The notes beneath the pieces were generated by a model. The model was not told where the DNA came from. It was given only the letters and a program-made list of their open reading frames with translations, and made no database searches. Of a DNA stretch of 64,000 nt, positions 2,466 to 59,370 are shown piece after piece. The first letter of the stretch is position 1; every line of letters begins with the position of its first letter. The translations under genes were made by a program, and so were the position numbers. The stretch comes from Procambarus clarkii. Its lineage: Eukaryota; Arthropoda; Malacostraca; Decapoda; Cambaridae. Location of the stretch: assembly GCF_040958095.1 (NCBI RefSeq), contig NC_091195.1, forward strand, positions 25,479,974 through 25,543,973. The letters run 5' to 3'.

Positions 2466-3785
2466 GAAAAAACCTGGTAACACATCTGGAGAGAAGGGAC
2501 TTCGTGACAAATCGCCAACATGGATTCAGGGAGGGTAAATCTTGCCTTACAGGCTTGATAGAATTCTACGATCAGGTGACACAGATTAAGCAAGAAAGAG
2601 AGGGCTGGGCGGACTGCATTTTCTTGGATTGTCGGAAAGCCTTTGACACAGTACCGCATAAGAGGCTGGTACATAAGCTGGAGAGACAGGCAGGTGTAGC
2701 TGGTAAGGTGCTCCAGTGGATAAGTGAGTATCTAAGCAAGAGGAAGCAGAGAGTTACGGTGAGGGGTGAGACCTCCGATTGGCGTGAAGTCACCAGTGGA
2801 GTCCCACAGGGCTCTGTACTCGGTCCTATCTTGTTTCTGATATATGTAAATGATCTCCCGGAGGGTATCGATTCATTTCTCTCAATGTTTGCGGACGATG
2901 CTAAAATTATGAGAAGGATTAAAACAGAAGAGGACTGTTTGAGGCTTCAAGAAGACCTAGACAAGCTGAAGGAATGGTCGAACAAATGGTTGTTAGAGTT
3001 TAACCCAACCAAATGTAATGTAATGAAGATAGGTGTAGGGAGCAGGAGGCCAGATACAAGGTATCATCTGGGAGAGGAAATTCTTCAGGAGTCAGAGAAG
3101 GAAAAAGACTTGGGGGTTGATATCACGCCAGACCTGTCTCCTGCAGCACATATCAAGCGGATAACATCAGCGGCATATGCCAGGCTGGCCAACATACGAA
3201 CGGCATTCAGAAACTTGTGTAAAGAATCATTCAGAACTTTGTATACCACATGTCAGGCCAATCCTGGAGTATGCAGCCCCAGCATGGAGTCCATATCTAG
3301 TCAAGGATAAGACTAAACTGGAAAAGGTTCAAAGGTTTGCCACCAGACTAGTACCCGAGCTGAGAGGTATGAGCTACGAGGAGAGACTAAGGGAATTAAA
3401 CCTCACTTCGCTGGAAAACAGAAGAGTTAGGGGGGACATGATCACCACATTCAAGATTCTGAAGGGGATTGATAGGGTAGATAAAGACAGTCTATTTAAC
3501 ACAAGGGGAACACGCACAAGGGGACACAGGTGGAAACCGAGTGCCCAAATGAGCCACAGAGATATTAGAAAGAACTTTTTTAGTGTCAGAGTGGTTGACA
3601 AATGGAATGCATTAGGAAGTGATGTGGTGGAGGCTGACTCCATACACAGTTTCAAGTGTAGATATGACAGAGCCCGATAGGCTCATGAATCTGTACACCT
3701 GTTGATTGACGGTTGAGAGGCGGGACCAAAGAGCCAGAGCTCAACCCCCGCAAACACAACTAGGTGAGTACAACTAGGTGAGTAC
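2464..3785 (+). mobile_element. CR1-like LINE, 5'-truncated copy 2
   Basis: Second member of the same LINE family, reaching further 5' than copy 1 (it keeps the RT finger segment RQHGFREGKSCL). It ends in the same style of tail: a 3' UTR with GGTTGAGAGGCGGGACC and CTCAACCCCCGCAAACACAA, then two copies of the ACTAGGTGAGTACA repeat running into (CA)n. Sequence divergence from copy 1 is considerable, so they are separate insertions of different subfamilies rather than a duplication. The tail matches reverse-strand fragments at 37.13, 55.86 and 56.10 kb. Confidence 0.9.
2467..3680 (+). pseudogene. Reverse transcriptase remnant of CR1-like LINE copy 2
   Basis: The frame from 2467 encodes RT domains 2 to 5: RQHGFREGKSCL, motif A FLDCRKAFDTVPHKR, motif B TSGVPQGSVLGPILFL, catalytic FADD (near 2890), then DLGVDITPDLSPAAHI. 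Near nucleotide 3250 the frame shifts (TACCACATGTCAGG lacks bases relative to copy 1), and the thumb and C-terminus continue in another frame (VRPILEYAAPAWSPYL, SYEERLRELNLTSLE, RTRGHRWKPSAQMSHRDIRK as separate blocks) to a TAG at 3678-3680. One frameshift and no other obvious lesion: a young but inactive copy. Confidence 0.88.
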
Positions 3786-3802
3786 ACACACACACACACA
3801 CA
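3784..3802. repeat. Short (CA)n after LINE tail
   Basis: About nine CA dinucleotides continuing the GAGTAC end of LINE copy 2, followed immediately by a SINE body. Confidence 0.9.
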
Positions 3803-3954
3803 TCCCCCAGGCTCGTAGCAGCTGTCTAACTCCCCGGTACCTGTTTATTGCTAGGTGAAAAGGGGCATTAAAGTGAAAGAAACCCCCATTGTTTCTCGCC
3901 GGCGCCGGGAATCGAACCCCGGACCACAGATTATCAATTATAACACAGCCGGCC
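3803..3954 (-). mobile_element. tRNA-derived SINE, partial
   Basis: On the reverse strand it shows a tRNA T-arm/B-box (GGGGTTCGATTCCCGG), a GAGAAACAATGG linker, a TTTCTTTCAC core, and the ACCTAGCAATAAACAGG / GTTAGACAGCTG body. The same body occurs at 3962, 34680 and 56190. Only the 3' half of the tRNA head is recognisable. It is an old, diverged copy. Confidence 0.78.
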
Positions 3955-3961
3955 ATTCCTT

Positions 3962-4173
3962 GAGGTTATCTTGAGATGATTTCGGGGCTTTAGTGTCCCC
4001 GCGGCCCGGTAATCGACCAGGCCTCCATACCCCAAGGAAGCAGCCCGTGACAGCTGACTAACACCCAGGTACCTATTTTACTGCTAGGTAACAGGGGCCA
4101 TCAGGGTGAAAGAAACTCGGCCCATTGTTTCTCGCCGGCGCCCCAGGATCGAACCCGGGACCACAGGATCACA
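3962..4173 (-). mobile_element. tRNA-derived SINE, near-complete body
   Basis: Reverse strand order: B-box CCCGGGTTCGATCCTGG, linker GCGAGAAACAATGGG, core TTTCTTTCACCCTGATG, TACCTAGCAGTAAAATAGG, CAGCTGTCACGGGCTGC, GAGGCCTGGTCGATTACCGG, and the 3' end ATCATCTCAAGATAACCTCA. The tRNA head is cut near the anticodon loop. ATTCCTT occurs at both edges (3955-3961 and 4174-4180) and may be a target-site duplication, although CCTTGAGG may belong to the SINE end itself. Confidence 0.82.
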
Positions 4174-4248
4174 ATTCCTTCCCAACCAGCTGTTGTCATT
4201 ATGGTTAACCATTAACGGGTTTCAATGGGGAGTTTGACCCCCATGGGG

Positions 4249-31861: not shown

Positions 31862-34077
31862 AAACAAGCCTAAGCAGGGAGATGGAAGAAATAGAACAAA
31901 CGTTGAAGCGATCATATGAGTCTAAGGAAATGGAATTGGAACAGAAAGCTATACAAGAGATAAGGAAAAATCCGAAATATTTTTTCACATACGCAAAATC
32001 CAAATCCAAAACCTAGACCAGTATTGGACCGTTAATTACAAATGAAGGTACGTACACAGAGGACAACAAAGAGATTAGTGAACTTCTAAGAAGCCAGTAT
32101 GAGGCTATGTTTAGCACACCAATAAACAACATGAAAGTTGATGACCCAGACAGCTTCTTTATGAATGACATTCAAGCTGCAGATAATATAACGGATATTA
32201 CCACAAACTCGGAAGACTTTGAAAGAGAAATTGATAATATGCCTATGCACTCAGCTCCTGGGCCTGACTCATGGAATTCAATATTGATAAAGAAATGTAA
32301 AGTACCAGTAGCGAGAGCACTCAGCGTAATATGGAGAAAGAGCCTGGATACAGGGGAGATACCAGCAGCACTTAAATCTGCAGATATAGCTCCGTTGCAC
32401 AAGGGGGGGAGTAAAGCCTTGGCAAAAAATTATAGGCCAGTTGCACTAACATCACACATAATAAAAGTGTTTGAAAGAGTGATTAGGAATCAAATTTCTA
32501 GTTTTATGGAAAATAATGAGTTACACAATCCAGGACAACATGGATTTAGAGCGGGAAGATCCTGTCTGTCACAGTTACTCAACCACTATGACAAAATCAC
32601 AGAAGCCCTAGAAGAAGAGCAAAATGCAGATGTTGTATACACAGACTTTGCAAAGGCGTTCAACAAATGTGACCATGGCGTGATAGCTCACAAAATGAGG
32701 TCAATGGGAATAACTGGTAAAGTAGGACGCTGGATACTCAATTTCCTGTCGAACAGAACGCAAAGAGCAACAGTCAATCAGATAAAATCGAGTCGGAGCG
32801 CAGTTAAAAGCTCTGTACCTCAAGGTACAGTCCTTGCACCACTGCTGTTCCGTATTCTCATATCAGACATAGACAAAAACACAAGTCACAGTTTCGTGTC
32901 GTCCTTTGCAGATGACACAAAAATCAACATGAAAATTATCTCTGCTGAAGACATTGAAAAACTACAAATAGATATCAACAAAGTTTTCGACTAGGCAGCA
33001 GAAAATAACATGATGTTTAACAGTGATAAATTCCAGGTACTCAGGTACGGCAAAAATGAGAACATTAAACATAATACAGAGTACAAAACACAATCGAATC
33101 TTCCCATAGTAGAAAAACAGCATGTCAAGGATTTGGGAATAATGATGTCCGACGATCTAACGTTTAGGGAGCATAACCAAGCAAATATTGCGTCAGCCAG
33201 AAAAATGATCGGATGGATTACGAGAATTTTCAAATCCAGGGATCCCATCACAATGGTTGTACTCTTCAAGTCACTTGTGTTGTCCCGTCTCGAGTACTGC
33301 TCAGTACTCACTTCCCCCTTCAGAGCAGGAGAGATTGCTGAAATAGAGGGAATACAGAGAACATATACGGCACGCATAGACGAGATAAAACACCTAAATT
33401 ATTGGGATCGTCTCAAAGCTCTCCAAATGTACTCTCTAGAAAGGAGACGAGAGAGATACCAAATAATATACACATGGAAAATACTGGAGGGTCAGGTCCC
33501 AAATCTACACAGTAAAATAACAACGTACTGGAGTGAACGATAAGGAAGAAAATGCAGAATAGAACCAGTGAAGAGCAGAGGTGCCATAGGCACAATCAGA
33601 GAACACTGTATAAACATCAGAGGTTCAGTGAAGAGCAGAGGTGCCATAGGCACAATCAGAGAGCACTGTATAAACATCAGAGGTCCAGTGAAGAGCAGAG
33701 GTGCCATAGGCACAATCAGAGAACACTGTATAAACATCAGAGGTTCAGTGAAGAGCAGAGGTGCCATAGGCACAATCAGAGAACACTGTATAAACATCAG
33801 AGGTCCAGTGAAGAGCAGAGGTGCCATAGGCACAATCAGAGAACACTGTATAAACATCAGAGGTCCGCGGTTGTTCAACGTCCTCCCAGCGACTATAAGA
33901 AATATTGCCGGAACAACCGTGGACATCTTCAAGAGGAAACTAGATAGTTTCCTCCAAGGAGTGCCGGACCAACCGGGCTGTGGTGGGTATGTGGGTCTGC
34001 GGGCCGCTCCAAGCAACAGCCTGGTGGACCAAACTCTCACAAGTCAAGCCTGGCCTCGGGCCGGGCTTGGGCAGTAG
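31862..34077 (+). pseudogene. Reverse transcriptase remnant of the 32-34 kb LINE
   Basis: One frame throughout. Linker: IRKNPKYFFTYAKSKSK. RT: PGPDSWNSILIKK, LHKGGSKALAKNYRPVALTS, GQHGFRAGRSCLSQLLNH, motif A YTDFAKAFNKCDH, motif B SVPQGTVLAPLLF, catalytic FADD near 32910, then KDLGIMMSDDLTFREH and SRLEYCSVLTSPFRAGEIAE. Three in-frame stops interrupt it: TAG at 32014, TAG at 32992 (the position of an expected Trp before AAENNMMFN) and TAA at 33541. I see no frameshift. Point decay without indels, plus in-frame repeats, suggests moderate age. Confidence 0.87.
33566..33868. repeat. 60-bp in-frame tandem duplication inside the LINE (five copies)
   Basis: Five copies of a 60-bp unit (GTGAAGAGCAGAGGTGCCAT, AGGCACAATCAGAGAACACT, GTATAAACATCAGAGGTYCA), each coding VKSRGAIGTIREHCINIRGS or -RGP. 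The LINE fragment at 18.3 kb has this segment once (KSRGATGTLRENSINIRGP), so single copy is the likely ancestral state. Copies differ at one or two sites only. Confidence 0.95.
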
Positions 34078-34671
34078 AACAACTCCCAGAACCCCATCAA
34101 CCAGGTATATGTGGGCCTGCGGGCCGCTCCAAGCAACAGCCTAGTGGACCAAACTCTCACAAGTCAAGCCTGGCCTCGGGCCGGGCTTGGGCAGTAGAAC
34201 AACTCCCAGAACCCCATCAACCAGGTATATGTGGGCCTGCGGGCCGCTCCAAGCAACAGCCTGGTGGACCAAACTCTCACAAGTCAAGCCTGGCCTCGGG
34301 CCGGGCTTGGGCAGTAGAACAACTCCCAGAACCCCATCAACCAGGTATATGTGGGCCTGCGGGCCGCTCCAAGCAACAGCCTGGTGGACCAAACTCTCAC
34401 AAGTCAAGCCTGGCCTCGGGCCGGGCTTGGGCAGTAGAACAACTCCCAGAACCCCATCAACCAGGTATATGTGGGCCTGCGGGCCGCTCCAAGCAACAGC
34501 CTGGTGGACCAAACTCTCACAAGTCAAGCCTGGCCTCGGGCCGGGCTTGGGCAGTAGAACAACTCCCAGAACCCCATCAACCAGGTATATGTGGGCCTGC
34601 GGGCCGCTCCAAGCAACAGCCTGGTGGACCAAACTCTCACAAGTCAAGCCTGGCCTCGGGCCGGGCTTGAC
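33985..34671. repeat. 120-bp tandem repeat at the LINE 3' end (about six copies)
   Basis: Unit starts recur at 33987, 34105, 34225, 34345, 34465 and 34585 (GTATATGTGGGCCTGCGG). Each unit contains GCTCCAAGCAACAGCCTGGT, TCACAAGTCAAGCCTGGCCT, CGGGCCGGGCTTGGGCAGTA and CCCCATCAACCAGGTA. The last copy stops after GCCGGGCTTG. The first copy overlaps the LINE's own stop codon, so this array covers the end of the ORF and its 3' UTR. Confidence 0.95.
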
Positions 34672-34679
34672 AAACGAGT

Positions 34680-34830
34680 AGACTTTCTTTCACCCTGATG
34701 CCACTGTTCACCTAGCGGTAAATAGGTACCTCGGAGTTAGACAGCTGCCACGGGCTGCTTCCTAGGGGTGGAGGCCTGGTCGAGGACCGGGCCGCGAGGA
34801 CGCTGAGCCAAGTCCGATTACAACTTCCTT
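34680..34830 (+). mobile_element. tRNA-derived SINE body without its head
   Basis: Plus-strand order: TTTCTTTCACCCTGATGCC, CACCTAGCGGTAAATAGGT, AGTTAGACAGCTGCCACGG, GCTGCTTCCTAGGGGTGGAG, GCCTGGTCGAGGACCGGGCC. It matches the reverse complement of the SINE at 3962-4173. The tRNA-like 5' head is absent; the SINE begins directly after the last 120-bp LINE repeat. Confidence 0.8.

Positions 34831-56028: not shown

Positions 56029-56101
<73 letters not shown>
56029..56101. repeat. (GT)n microsatellite between two LINE tails
   Basis: About 36 GT dinucleotides, ending in TTTACTAGTTGTG of a second reverse-strand LINE tail. Confidence 0.97.
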
Positions 56102-56103
<2 letters not shown>

Positions 56104-56180
56104 ACTAGTTGTGTTTTTGCGGGGGTTGAGCTTTGCTCTTTCGGCCCGCCTCTCAACTGTCAATCAACTGTTTACTAACT
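56102..56180 (-). mobile_element. CR1-like LINE 3' UTR fragment
   Basis: Reverse strand reads AGTTGATTGACAGTTGAGAG, GCGGGCCGAAAGAGCAAAGC, CTCAACCCCCGCAAAAACAC, AACTAGTAAA, then (CA)n. Same family as the neighbouring tail but a separate copy. Confidence 0.82.
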
Positions 56181-56189
56181 ACTTTTTTT

Positions 56190-56288
56190 TCCCACACCAC
56201 ACACACCCCAGGAAGCAGCCCGTGACAGCTGACTAACTCCCAGGTACCTATTTACTGCTAGGTAACAGGGGCACTTAGGGTGAAAGAA
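56190..56288 (-). mobile_element. SINE, 3' half (interrupted by the LINE at 56289-59263)
   Basis: Reverse strand: TTCTTTCACCCTAAGTGCCC, CTGTTACCTAGCAGTAAATA, GGTACCTGGGAGTTAGTCAG, CTGTCACGGGCTGCTTCCTG, ending near GGGAAAAAAAAGTAG. It is the body of the tRNA-headed SINE whose 5' half lies at 59264-59370. The two halves share TTAGGGTGAAAGAA at the break (56275-56288 and 59264-59277). Confidence 0.88.
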
Positions 56289-56359
56289 GTAAGTAATTAT
56301 CAAAAGAAGGCACCAAACCGGGAAGGCTATGTAGCACCATCAAATACGCAAAATAATCA

Positions 56360-59263
56360 GAGGGCGCTAAATATCACCAAGGATGCCAATACGAGAACAA
56401 AAACGCATAAGGCGAACGATATCAAAAGTATCCGAGTCACCAAGAATTCTATCGAGGGACAGGTGACCGCGAGGGGAGGTCGGAAAGCAAGACACACGCT
56501 CGTCCTGGAAGTCAGGACATTCAAGAAGGACATGCACGACCGTAAGAGGGACAATGCAACTAGGACAATAAGGGGCAGGGCGGCGCTCCATCAAGTGACC
56601 ATGGGTTAAGCGAGTATGGCCAATACGCAACCTCGCCAGAGCTGTTTCCCACCGCCGGTTACGGTGGAAGGAGGACGGCCACGAGGAAACACAACATTTA
56701 AGAGTACGTAGCTTGTTACCAGTAACAGACCAACCTGTCCTCTTAAAAAGAACGTCGCTTTTGGCCGTTTGTCCGTATGGCCGAATTTGGACGTAATTTG
56801 GAAATGAAAATAAATTTGGGATTTTTTTTTTCAACAACAGTAAGTTAAGGGTCCTCTGATAGGTTAGGTGGGCAGGAAATTCTCAAAGTTTCAAAACGTT
56901 ATGAAAAACGTGAATTTAAAGTGTCCTCTTATAACCTCTGCACGTAGGCCAGACGACTCAAATAGAAAACGGAACAGAACGTCACTTTTGTGAGTCGATT
57001 TCATTTCAAATTACGTCCAAATTTGGCCATAGTGCGCATACGAGCCAAAAGTGACGTTCTTTTTAAGAGGACGGGTTGAACAGACAACCAAGAAGCCTGC
57101 CAACGGGTAAGGACTGAGGAATGGATAACCGGGTAAAAGTCGGAATACGAAATGCCTTTACGAGAGATGGGACAAGAGCGGACAGCTTCCTTGGCGGCAG
57201 CATCCGCACGCTCATTTAAAGACACACCAATATGGCTGGGAACCCAACAAAACTCAACCGACTTAAATTTACTGTGAACGAGAAACAGCCAATGCTGGAT
57301 CTCGACAACTACTGGATGAACCGGATTAAAGGACCCGAGAGCCATGAGGGCACTACGAGAGTCAACAACAACTACAAAGGAAGACTGACAACGAGAAAGC
57401 AGGAGACGAAGAGCATAGAGAATAGCATAAAGTTCCGCTGTAAAGATGCTAGTCTCCGGAGGCAAGCGACACATATAACTGTGATCAGGAAAAACAACAG
57501 AGTAGCCAACACCGACCGCTGACTTAGACCCATCGGTGAAGACAGAAACGGAGCGGGAGTGAGAAGAAAAGTGCTCGAGGAAAAGGCGTTTTAGAACCGT
57601 AGGAGGGGTAAAAGCTTTAGTGATACGGGTCAAGGATGTACAAAACCGTGGAAGACGGACCCTCCACGGGGGCAAAGAAGGAACAACACGAGGAGAAACA
57701 TTAGAAACACGAACGGAAAGAGAATCCTGTAAACGAGATAACCGGACAGAAAGAGGGAGGTGGTGAAGAGGAACAGGACCGCAGGAGGGGTAAAAGTTAA
57801 AGCACGGCAGAGGCGAGAGGAAGGATGTTGTAAGGATCGCGCAAGATAGCGAAGACAGTAGCGATCACGGCGGTCCTGGAGAGACAGGAAGCCAGTGTCA
57901 ACATATAAGCTAAGGACGGGAGTCGAACGAAAGGCACCAGAACTGAGGCGCAACCCAGTATGGTGCAAAGCATCAAGACGGCGAAGAGTAGAAGGAGAAG
58001 CAGACGAGTAAGCAGGGCAACCATAATCGAGCTTAGACAGGACGAGAGAGGAATGTAAAGCAAGGAGAGTGCGCCTATCTGCCCCCCAAGAAGTATGGGA
58101 CAAGACCCGAAGGAGGGTAAGGGCCTTAGAGCACTCAACACGAAGGTAAGAGATATGGGGAGACCAAGACAAACGAGTGTCAAGGAATAACCCCAAAAGC
58201 TTCGCGGAATCTTTGTACTCAAGGGGATGACCGTAAAGTGACAAAGAGGGACGAAGAACAACCCGTTTCCGCGTAAAAGTCATGGCACAAGTCTTAGAAG
58301 TAGAGAACTTGAAGCCATGACCTGTGGCCCAAGACGACACGGCATCAATCGCAAGTTGAAGCCGGCGTTGAAGGAGAGGCGAATCATCACCCTGACAACA
58401 AAGGGTAAGATCATCGACATAGAGAGCAGAGAAGACACCAGAAGGAAGAGAGGAAAAAAGACCATTGAGGGCAACCAGAAAAAGAGTAGTGCTCAGAACA
58501 CTACCCTGGGGCACACCTTCGTATTGCTGAAAAGAGGGAGAGAGCGCGGTACCAAGGCGCACCCGAAAGGAACGACGAGAGAGGAAGCTGCGGAGAAAGA
58601 GAGGGAGATGACCACGAAGGCCAAAAGAATGAAGATGAGATAGGATATGATAACGCCAAGTGGTGTCGTAAGCCTTTTCCAGGTCAAAAAGGACGGCAAC
58701 AACGGAGGTCTTCGCAGCAAAAGCAGTACGAATATAGACCTCCAAGTTCACCAGGACATCTGTCGTGCTGCGGCACTTGCGGAAACCAAATTGAGAAGGG
58801 GAGAGGAGGTGATGGTGTTCCAGGAACCACATCAGACGAACGTTAACCATACGTTCAAAGAGTTTGCAGACACAACTTGTGAGAGCAATAGGGCGAAAGT
58901 CCTTAGGGGAAGTACCCAGAGACCCCGGTTTGCGAACAGGGAGGACAACGGCATCGAGCCAGTCCTCAGGGACTAACGACGACTCCCAGATCCGATTATA
59001 CAGACTCAGTAAATACTGAGACGTGCTCGGAGGGAGATGGCGAAGCATCTCATAATGAATACCATCGGAGCCCGCCGCCGTAGAACCGCAGAGGGCCAGG
59101 GCAGAACGAAGTTCAGAGAGAGAGAAGGGATCATTATAGGGAAGCTGAAGACGAGTGCAGAAATCTAAAGGACGAGACTCAAGGACAGGTTTACGAAGAA
59201 GGAAAGATTGGGGAAGATGAAGACCAGAGCTAACAGAAGAAAAGTGGGAACCCAGTTCGGAAG
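56360..59263 (-). pseudogene. RT-RNase H polyprotein remnant of the I-like LINE
   Basis: The first frame (59263 down to about 57780) encodes RT: SDGIHYEMLRHL, KDFRPIALTSCVCKLFERM, LLSPSQFGFRKCRSTTD, motif A VLFDLEKAYDTTW, motif B YEGVPQGSVLS, motif C LYVDDLTLCC. A frameshift lies near 57.75-57.80 kb. The next frame carries RNase H with all four expected acidic residues in context: VFTDGSKS, TAELYAI, VDSRSALM and NERADAAAKEA, plus WVPSHIGVS. After the MITE the frame resumes with LARLRIGHTRLTHGHLM and a CX2CX7HX4C knuckle (CPSC ... H ... C in LLECP). One frameshift and one insertion; no internal stop seen in the RT part. Confidence 0.9.
56731..57078. mobile_element. MITE (non-autonomous DNA transposon), 348 bp
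   Basis: Terminal inverted repeats of about 80 bp: CAACCYGTCCTCTTAAAAAG, then AACGTCRCTTTTGGC, diverging slightly, then AAATTTGGACGTAATTTG. A 7-bp target-site duplication, AACAGAC, lies at 56724-56730 and 57079-57085. There is no coding capacity. Internal copies of GTCCTCTTA and GAACGTCACTTTTG repeat parts of the TIR. Removing the element and one duplication leaves a continuous LINE reading frame (LSVTGNK across the site), which confirms the borders. The superfamily is not determined; the 7-bp duplication leaves several possibilities. Confidence 0.9.
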
Positions 59264-59370
59264 TTAGGGTGAAAGAAACTTTGCCCATTTGTTTCTGCCT
59301 CGTGCGGGAATCGAACCCGCGCCACAGAATTACGAGTCCTGCGCGCTATCCACCAGGCTACGAGGCCCCT
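59264..59370 (-). mobile_element. SINE, 5' half with tRNA-like head
   Basis: The reverse-strand tRNA-like head at 59366-59297 folds well: acceptor GCCTCGT with ACGAGGC (seven perfect pairs), anticodon stem CAGGA/TTCTG around loop CTCGTAA, T-arm GCGGG/CCCGC around TTCGATT. The anticodon would be CGT (Thr). A-box TAGCCTGGTGG and B-box GGTTCGATTCC are intact, so a Pol III promoter is plausible. The D-arm is one base short of standard. It continues as AGAAACAAATGGGC and TTTCTTTCACCCTAA, the SINE core, where the LINE is inserted. It is a SINE rather than a functional tRNA gene because it reads straight into the SINE body. Confidence 0.88.

Follow-up and report, generated by a model that had tools for sequence, protein, structure and literature searches.

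Organization of the nested locus

The window, by which we mean the whole 64,000-nucleotide stretch that was analysed (G000:C46:25479974-25543973), almost certainly contains three nested jumping genes, a SINE split by a LINE that was in turn later split by a MITE. Using comparison copies drawn from the same 4.03-Gb assembly, we observed directly the borders of the elements, both duplications, the empty sites, the order of insertion, the LINE tail and the LINE truncation. The relative order is SINE, then LINE, then MITE because empty sites were found in other copies, both for the SINE (26 of 27 loci) and for the part of the LINE that carries the MITE (34 of 43 LINE loci), in agreement with the order proposed in a preliminary description of this DNA. 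The positions first given are right for the LINE and its 14-bp repeat as well as for the MITE and its 7-bp repeat; the claim of precise borders for three families holds for the MITE, while small corrections apply to the left border of the SINE, to the idea of a fixed LINE end and to the duplication length of exactly 14 bp. The nesting is clean but ordinary retrotransposon behaviour, and the three-way nest has no function of its own, being debris left behind by three active families. These findings leave the working model of SINE, LINE or MITE elements unchanged; for annotation they are useful in that three abundant families of a genome very rich in repeats now have exact borders and relative ages, and the LINE has its true 3' tail and target preference.

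The SINE and its uninterrupted copies

The SINE lies on the minus strand. Its 3' (body) half occupies 56100..56288, with a GT-repeat tail extending left to about 56026, and its 5' half (59278..59368) holds the tRNA head, identified by ARAGORN as a minus-strand tRNA-Thr(cgt) at 59296-59366. Searching the genome with the left half gave 697 first-look candidates, and all 40 of those scored matched, revealing a dispersed, high-copy SINE with the same borders. We fetched 27 of the 39 other places among these 40, a sample that favours close copies and in which several loci (a cluster on C9 and a pair on C77) may be copies of one another. All 27 align to at least 56140 and the best seven to 56097 or beyond, about 56097 being the limit in the shortest of the seven. 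The left border originally set at 56190 was therefore too short. In all seven best copies the right half directly continues the left half; together with the ARAGORN head, this supports a tRNA-headed SINE split at its core, as had been suggested.

Intact SINEs that continue across the break and hold the site only once had been named as the expected support, and they were found at 26 of the 27 other loci and in 3 of 3 further SINEs of the window (3789-3930, 4026-4179 and 34670-34770). The sole locus that does not read through, L026, has a LINE of this family inserted at the identical base, so the proposed junction is not in substance contradicted. The element resembles tRNA-derived SINEs in its intact tRNA-like head, conserved body, microsatellite-like tail and very high copy number, and no decapod SINE of matching sequence turned up in the literature searched. 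The window copy ends in GT repeats, and inspection by eye found no clear pair representing the SINE's own target-site duplication. The relatives at 3789-4179 of the window form a pair, close together and in the same orientation. Along roughly 84 kb of C9 (G000:C9:47729231-47813130), SINE copies are spaced about 10 kb apart, which suggests a tandemly repeated large unit.

A 5'-truncated, RNase H-bearing LINE with a variable tail

The element between the SINE halves is an APE-type non-LTR retrotransposon with RNase H, lying at 56289..59263 on the minus strand with its 3' end at 56289 and comprising 2620 bp of LINE sequence proper when the MITE and one AACAGAC are left out. The RNase H-bearing LINE of the preliminary description was confirmed by minus-strand matches to RVT_1 (E=1.4e-33) and RNase_H (E=3.9e-11) and by alignments to other copies. 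The two domains are in different frames: the RT-holding frame (57630..59263) belongs to an ORF at 57630-59345 that runs on through SINE sequence, and the RNase H-holding frame (57001..57864) is cut by the MITE, both on the minus strand. The RT also matches LINE-1 ORF2p chains (E about 4e-12). Two longer copies measure about 6.3 kb (as the sum of fetched pieces), so the whole element is roughly 6.3 kb long and the window LINE, with 2.6 kb left, is 5'-truncated and lacks more than half of it, from the 5' part. An AP-endonuclease domain, absent from the 5'-truncated window LINE, is present upstream of the RT in the long copy L093 (Exo_endo_phos_2, E=8.4e-19). Direct repeats of 15 bp and 16 bp bound the two long copies at both ends, and the LINE shows variable duplication length (14, 15 and 16 bp) and frequent 5' truncation, some copies retaining only the last 141, 189 or 199 bp before the 3' end.

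A search with the 3' 200 bp of the LINE returned 47 candidates, 40 of which were scored; several matches on other contigs are 100% identical, indicating that the family was active recently. Among the best 30 of the 40 scored loci, window included, the 3' end is common to all 30 and the flanks mostly differ. GTAAGTAATTATC is present letter for letter in 24 of the 30, and past it come zero to two further TTAC units and then differing DNA; the tail is a (TTAC)n repeat whose length varies between copies, (TTAC)1-3. The expectation that no LINE 3' end would extend past 56289 thus needs qualifying, since many copies do extend past the matching base, but by tail units only, which does not in substance contradict the proposed border.

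The LINE ends at 189-199 bp were also considered as LINE-tailed SINEs, a reading that we rejected, as unrelated DNA lies beyond them and their appearance is that of truncated copies. The LINE breaks off at 189 bp in L041 and L059 and at 199 bp in the L050 group; within that group, L050, L053, L054 and L055 have one flank and their length in common and were counted as one insertion. Further RT-like stretches of the window (32329-33489, 1229-1963 and 2474-3163), about 25% identical to the LINE RT, come from other retroelement families.

We take the LINE to be of the I-like kind, putatively of the I or Nimb clade. It resembles I-superfamily LINEs (I, Nimb, R1 and relatives) in having an AP endonuclease, RT, RNase H and a short tandem-repeat 3' tail and, as judged by eye, an ORF1 with CCHC-like knuckles and a C-terminal CCHC-like motif. 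The nearest sequence relatives found are 44-46% identical and lie in contigs catalogued under a Sulfurovum MAG and a Solemya symbiont. The genome-contig search, with 17 candidate stretches, returned three distant relatives (L001, L002 and L003); these animal-type LINE sequences in contigs catalogued under the Sulfurovum MAG and the Solemya gill symbiont are probably host DNA within bacterial assemblies. No matches were found in the phages and viral contigs searched.

Recurrent LINE insertion at one SINE base

The same-base LINE at L026 qualifies the nesting account, being a coincidence that a wholly random inserter would rarely produce. Allowing at most one mismatch, AGGGTGAAAGAAGTAAGTAA occurs at 12 genome places (L094-L105), 8 of them exact, against 4 matches for the backwards control. 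All 12 are SINE-LINE junctions at one identical base, and their left flanks group them into about seven independent insertions (C46, C32, C52, C76 with four copies, C93, C256, and C79/C81 with three copies). These events include an old one, in which the LINE part is about 87% identical to the others, as well as young ones. L026, which is among them, came from the 27 SINE loci, which had been fetched on other grounds. Such recurrence could mean that the LINE is partly site-specific, recognising the SINE core (GGGTGAAAGAAG) and using the SINE as a dispersed safe harbour. We nevertheless consider this unlikely. The LINE 3' end has 16,789 genome matches (backwards control, 0), of which the 12 same-base junctions represent under 0.1%, and 29 distinct LINE insertions sit outside the SINE site. 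Moreover, the same closing eight bases, GAAAGAAG, stand before the shortest tail form at nine places, of which the window alone figures among the 12 SINE junctions.

LINE abundance and local sequence context may account for the recurrence. The set of 29 distinct insertions was obtained from 38 rows by removing 9 (8 at the SINE site and L054 as a duplicate), with target ends entered by hand. Ten of the 29 targets end in AAG compared to a background of 1.6%, a 21-fold excess. LINE abundance and this AAG preference already predict roughly 2.8-11 same-base hits, an order-of-magnitude check that assumes 1-4 SINE sites per 64 kb, takes its density from one 64-kb window, and counts a final G that may belong to the LINE tail. 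Since about seven insertions in 12 places were seen, targeting of the SINE need not be invoked, and the site-specific LINE that L026 had brought up was set aside. It is correspondingly improbable that the LINE endonuclease has a preference for the SINE core over and above that for the local AAG, one that would turn the SINE into a semi-specific landing site; if it had, LINEs would have piled up on the SINE repeatedly over a long time.

One published account (PMC4640811) names rRNA genes, tRNA genes, transposons and microsatellites among the known LINE targets, and it also describes weakly specific families. The LINE studied here resembles target-specific LINEs (R2, Tx1, R1 clades and Utopia) in having inserted repeatedly at a single base within a repeat and differs from them in that only 12 of its 16,789 3' ends are at the site, a proportion that fits a loose preference.

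The LINE target-site duplication

TTAGGGTGAAAGAA occurs exactly at 56275-56288 and at 59264-59277, both on the minus strand, the left copy perhaps running to 56289. Allowing up to two mismatches, the window holds five matches to it compared to 0.37 expected by chance, and the other three lie in the three window SINEs that read through the break; in 26 of the 27 SINE loci the site is single. AGGGTGAAAGAA has 29 matches within the 27 SINE loci, 27 of them followed by G and 2 by A. In the window, the following base is A in the right half (59278) and G in the left half (56289). The duplication may be 14 or 15 bp long, because next to the right copy stands an A instead of the G usual in the SINE, and the G at 56289 may belong either to the SINE, giving a 15-bp duplication with one later change, or to the LINE tail. 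The 14-bp duplication first described thus stands as an exact match at both places, with a length that may be 15 bp. We give almost no credence to the view that the halves are two separate SINE fragments flanking the LINE, with the 14-bp match being shared SINE sequence and no duplication: SINEs are frequent locally, with three further copies in 64 kb and a core conserved among them, but the overlap between the halves is exactly the 14 bp present at both LINE borders, the LINE begins and ends at this repeat, the two halves share an orientation and add up to one complete SINE, and TTAGGG is found in both where many SINE copies have TCAGGG or CATAGGG.

For the nested insertion, the sequence points to target-primed reverse transcription, by which an I-like APE-type LINE would have hit the tRNA-headed SINE. 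The nicked SINE strand ending ...GGGTGAAAGAA(G) would have primed on the (UUAC)n tail of the LINE RNA, with the primer end AA(G) pairing with the UUAC tail. Copying of the LINE would then have been abandoned after 2.6 kb, causing the 5' truncation, and repair would have left the 14-15 bp duplication. These enzymological steps (priming, nick and repair) are inferred from the letters of the DNA. At a later time, a cut-and-paste MITE with 7-bp duplications inserted into the LINE, in the part that carries RNase H.

The MITE inside the LINE

The MITE, a 348-bp element with terminal inverted repeats, lies at 56731..57078 between matching copies of AACAGAC at 56724..56730 and 57079..57085. Its inverted ends are 35 bp long and 94% complementary, and it is a non-autonomous DNA transposon without coding capacity. 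The genome search gave 2991 candidates, in keeping with a high copy number; among the 40 copies scored, 35 start at base 1 and 5 at bases 2-4, and all 40 reach base 348. An exact 7-bp duplication flanks 23 of 30 MITE loci, amounting to about 15 distinct sites after removal of copied flanks, and the remaining seven have one duplication of 6, one of 3 and five with none.

At 34 of 43 loci the LINE is uninterrupted at the MITE site, with AACAGAC present once and no MITE; the 43 include the window twice and one C256 place twice (L026 and L101). The other nine are the window itself (L033 and L095) and seven copies truncated before the site (L041, L050, L053, L054, L055, L059 and L100). Where both flanking LINE segments are intact in MITE-less copies (L032 and L034), they overlap by exactly 7 bases, and the LINE frames flanking the MITE are in phase once 355 bp are left out. 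These results corroborate the earlier report of a 348-bp MITE with its own 7-bp duplication inside the LINE. On the small contigs C489, C947 and C672 (L065-L070 and L072-L074), the MITE occurs in repeated copies with common flanks, several kb apart, and there it apparently belongs to a larger unit that is either tandem or dispersed.
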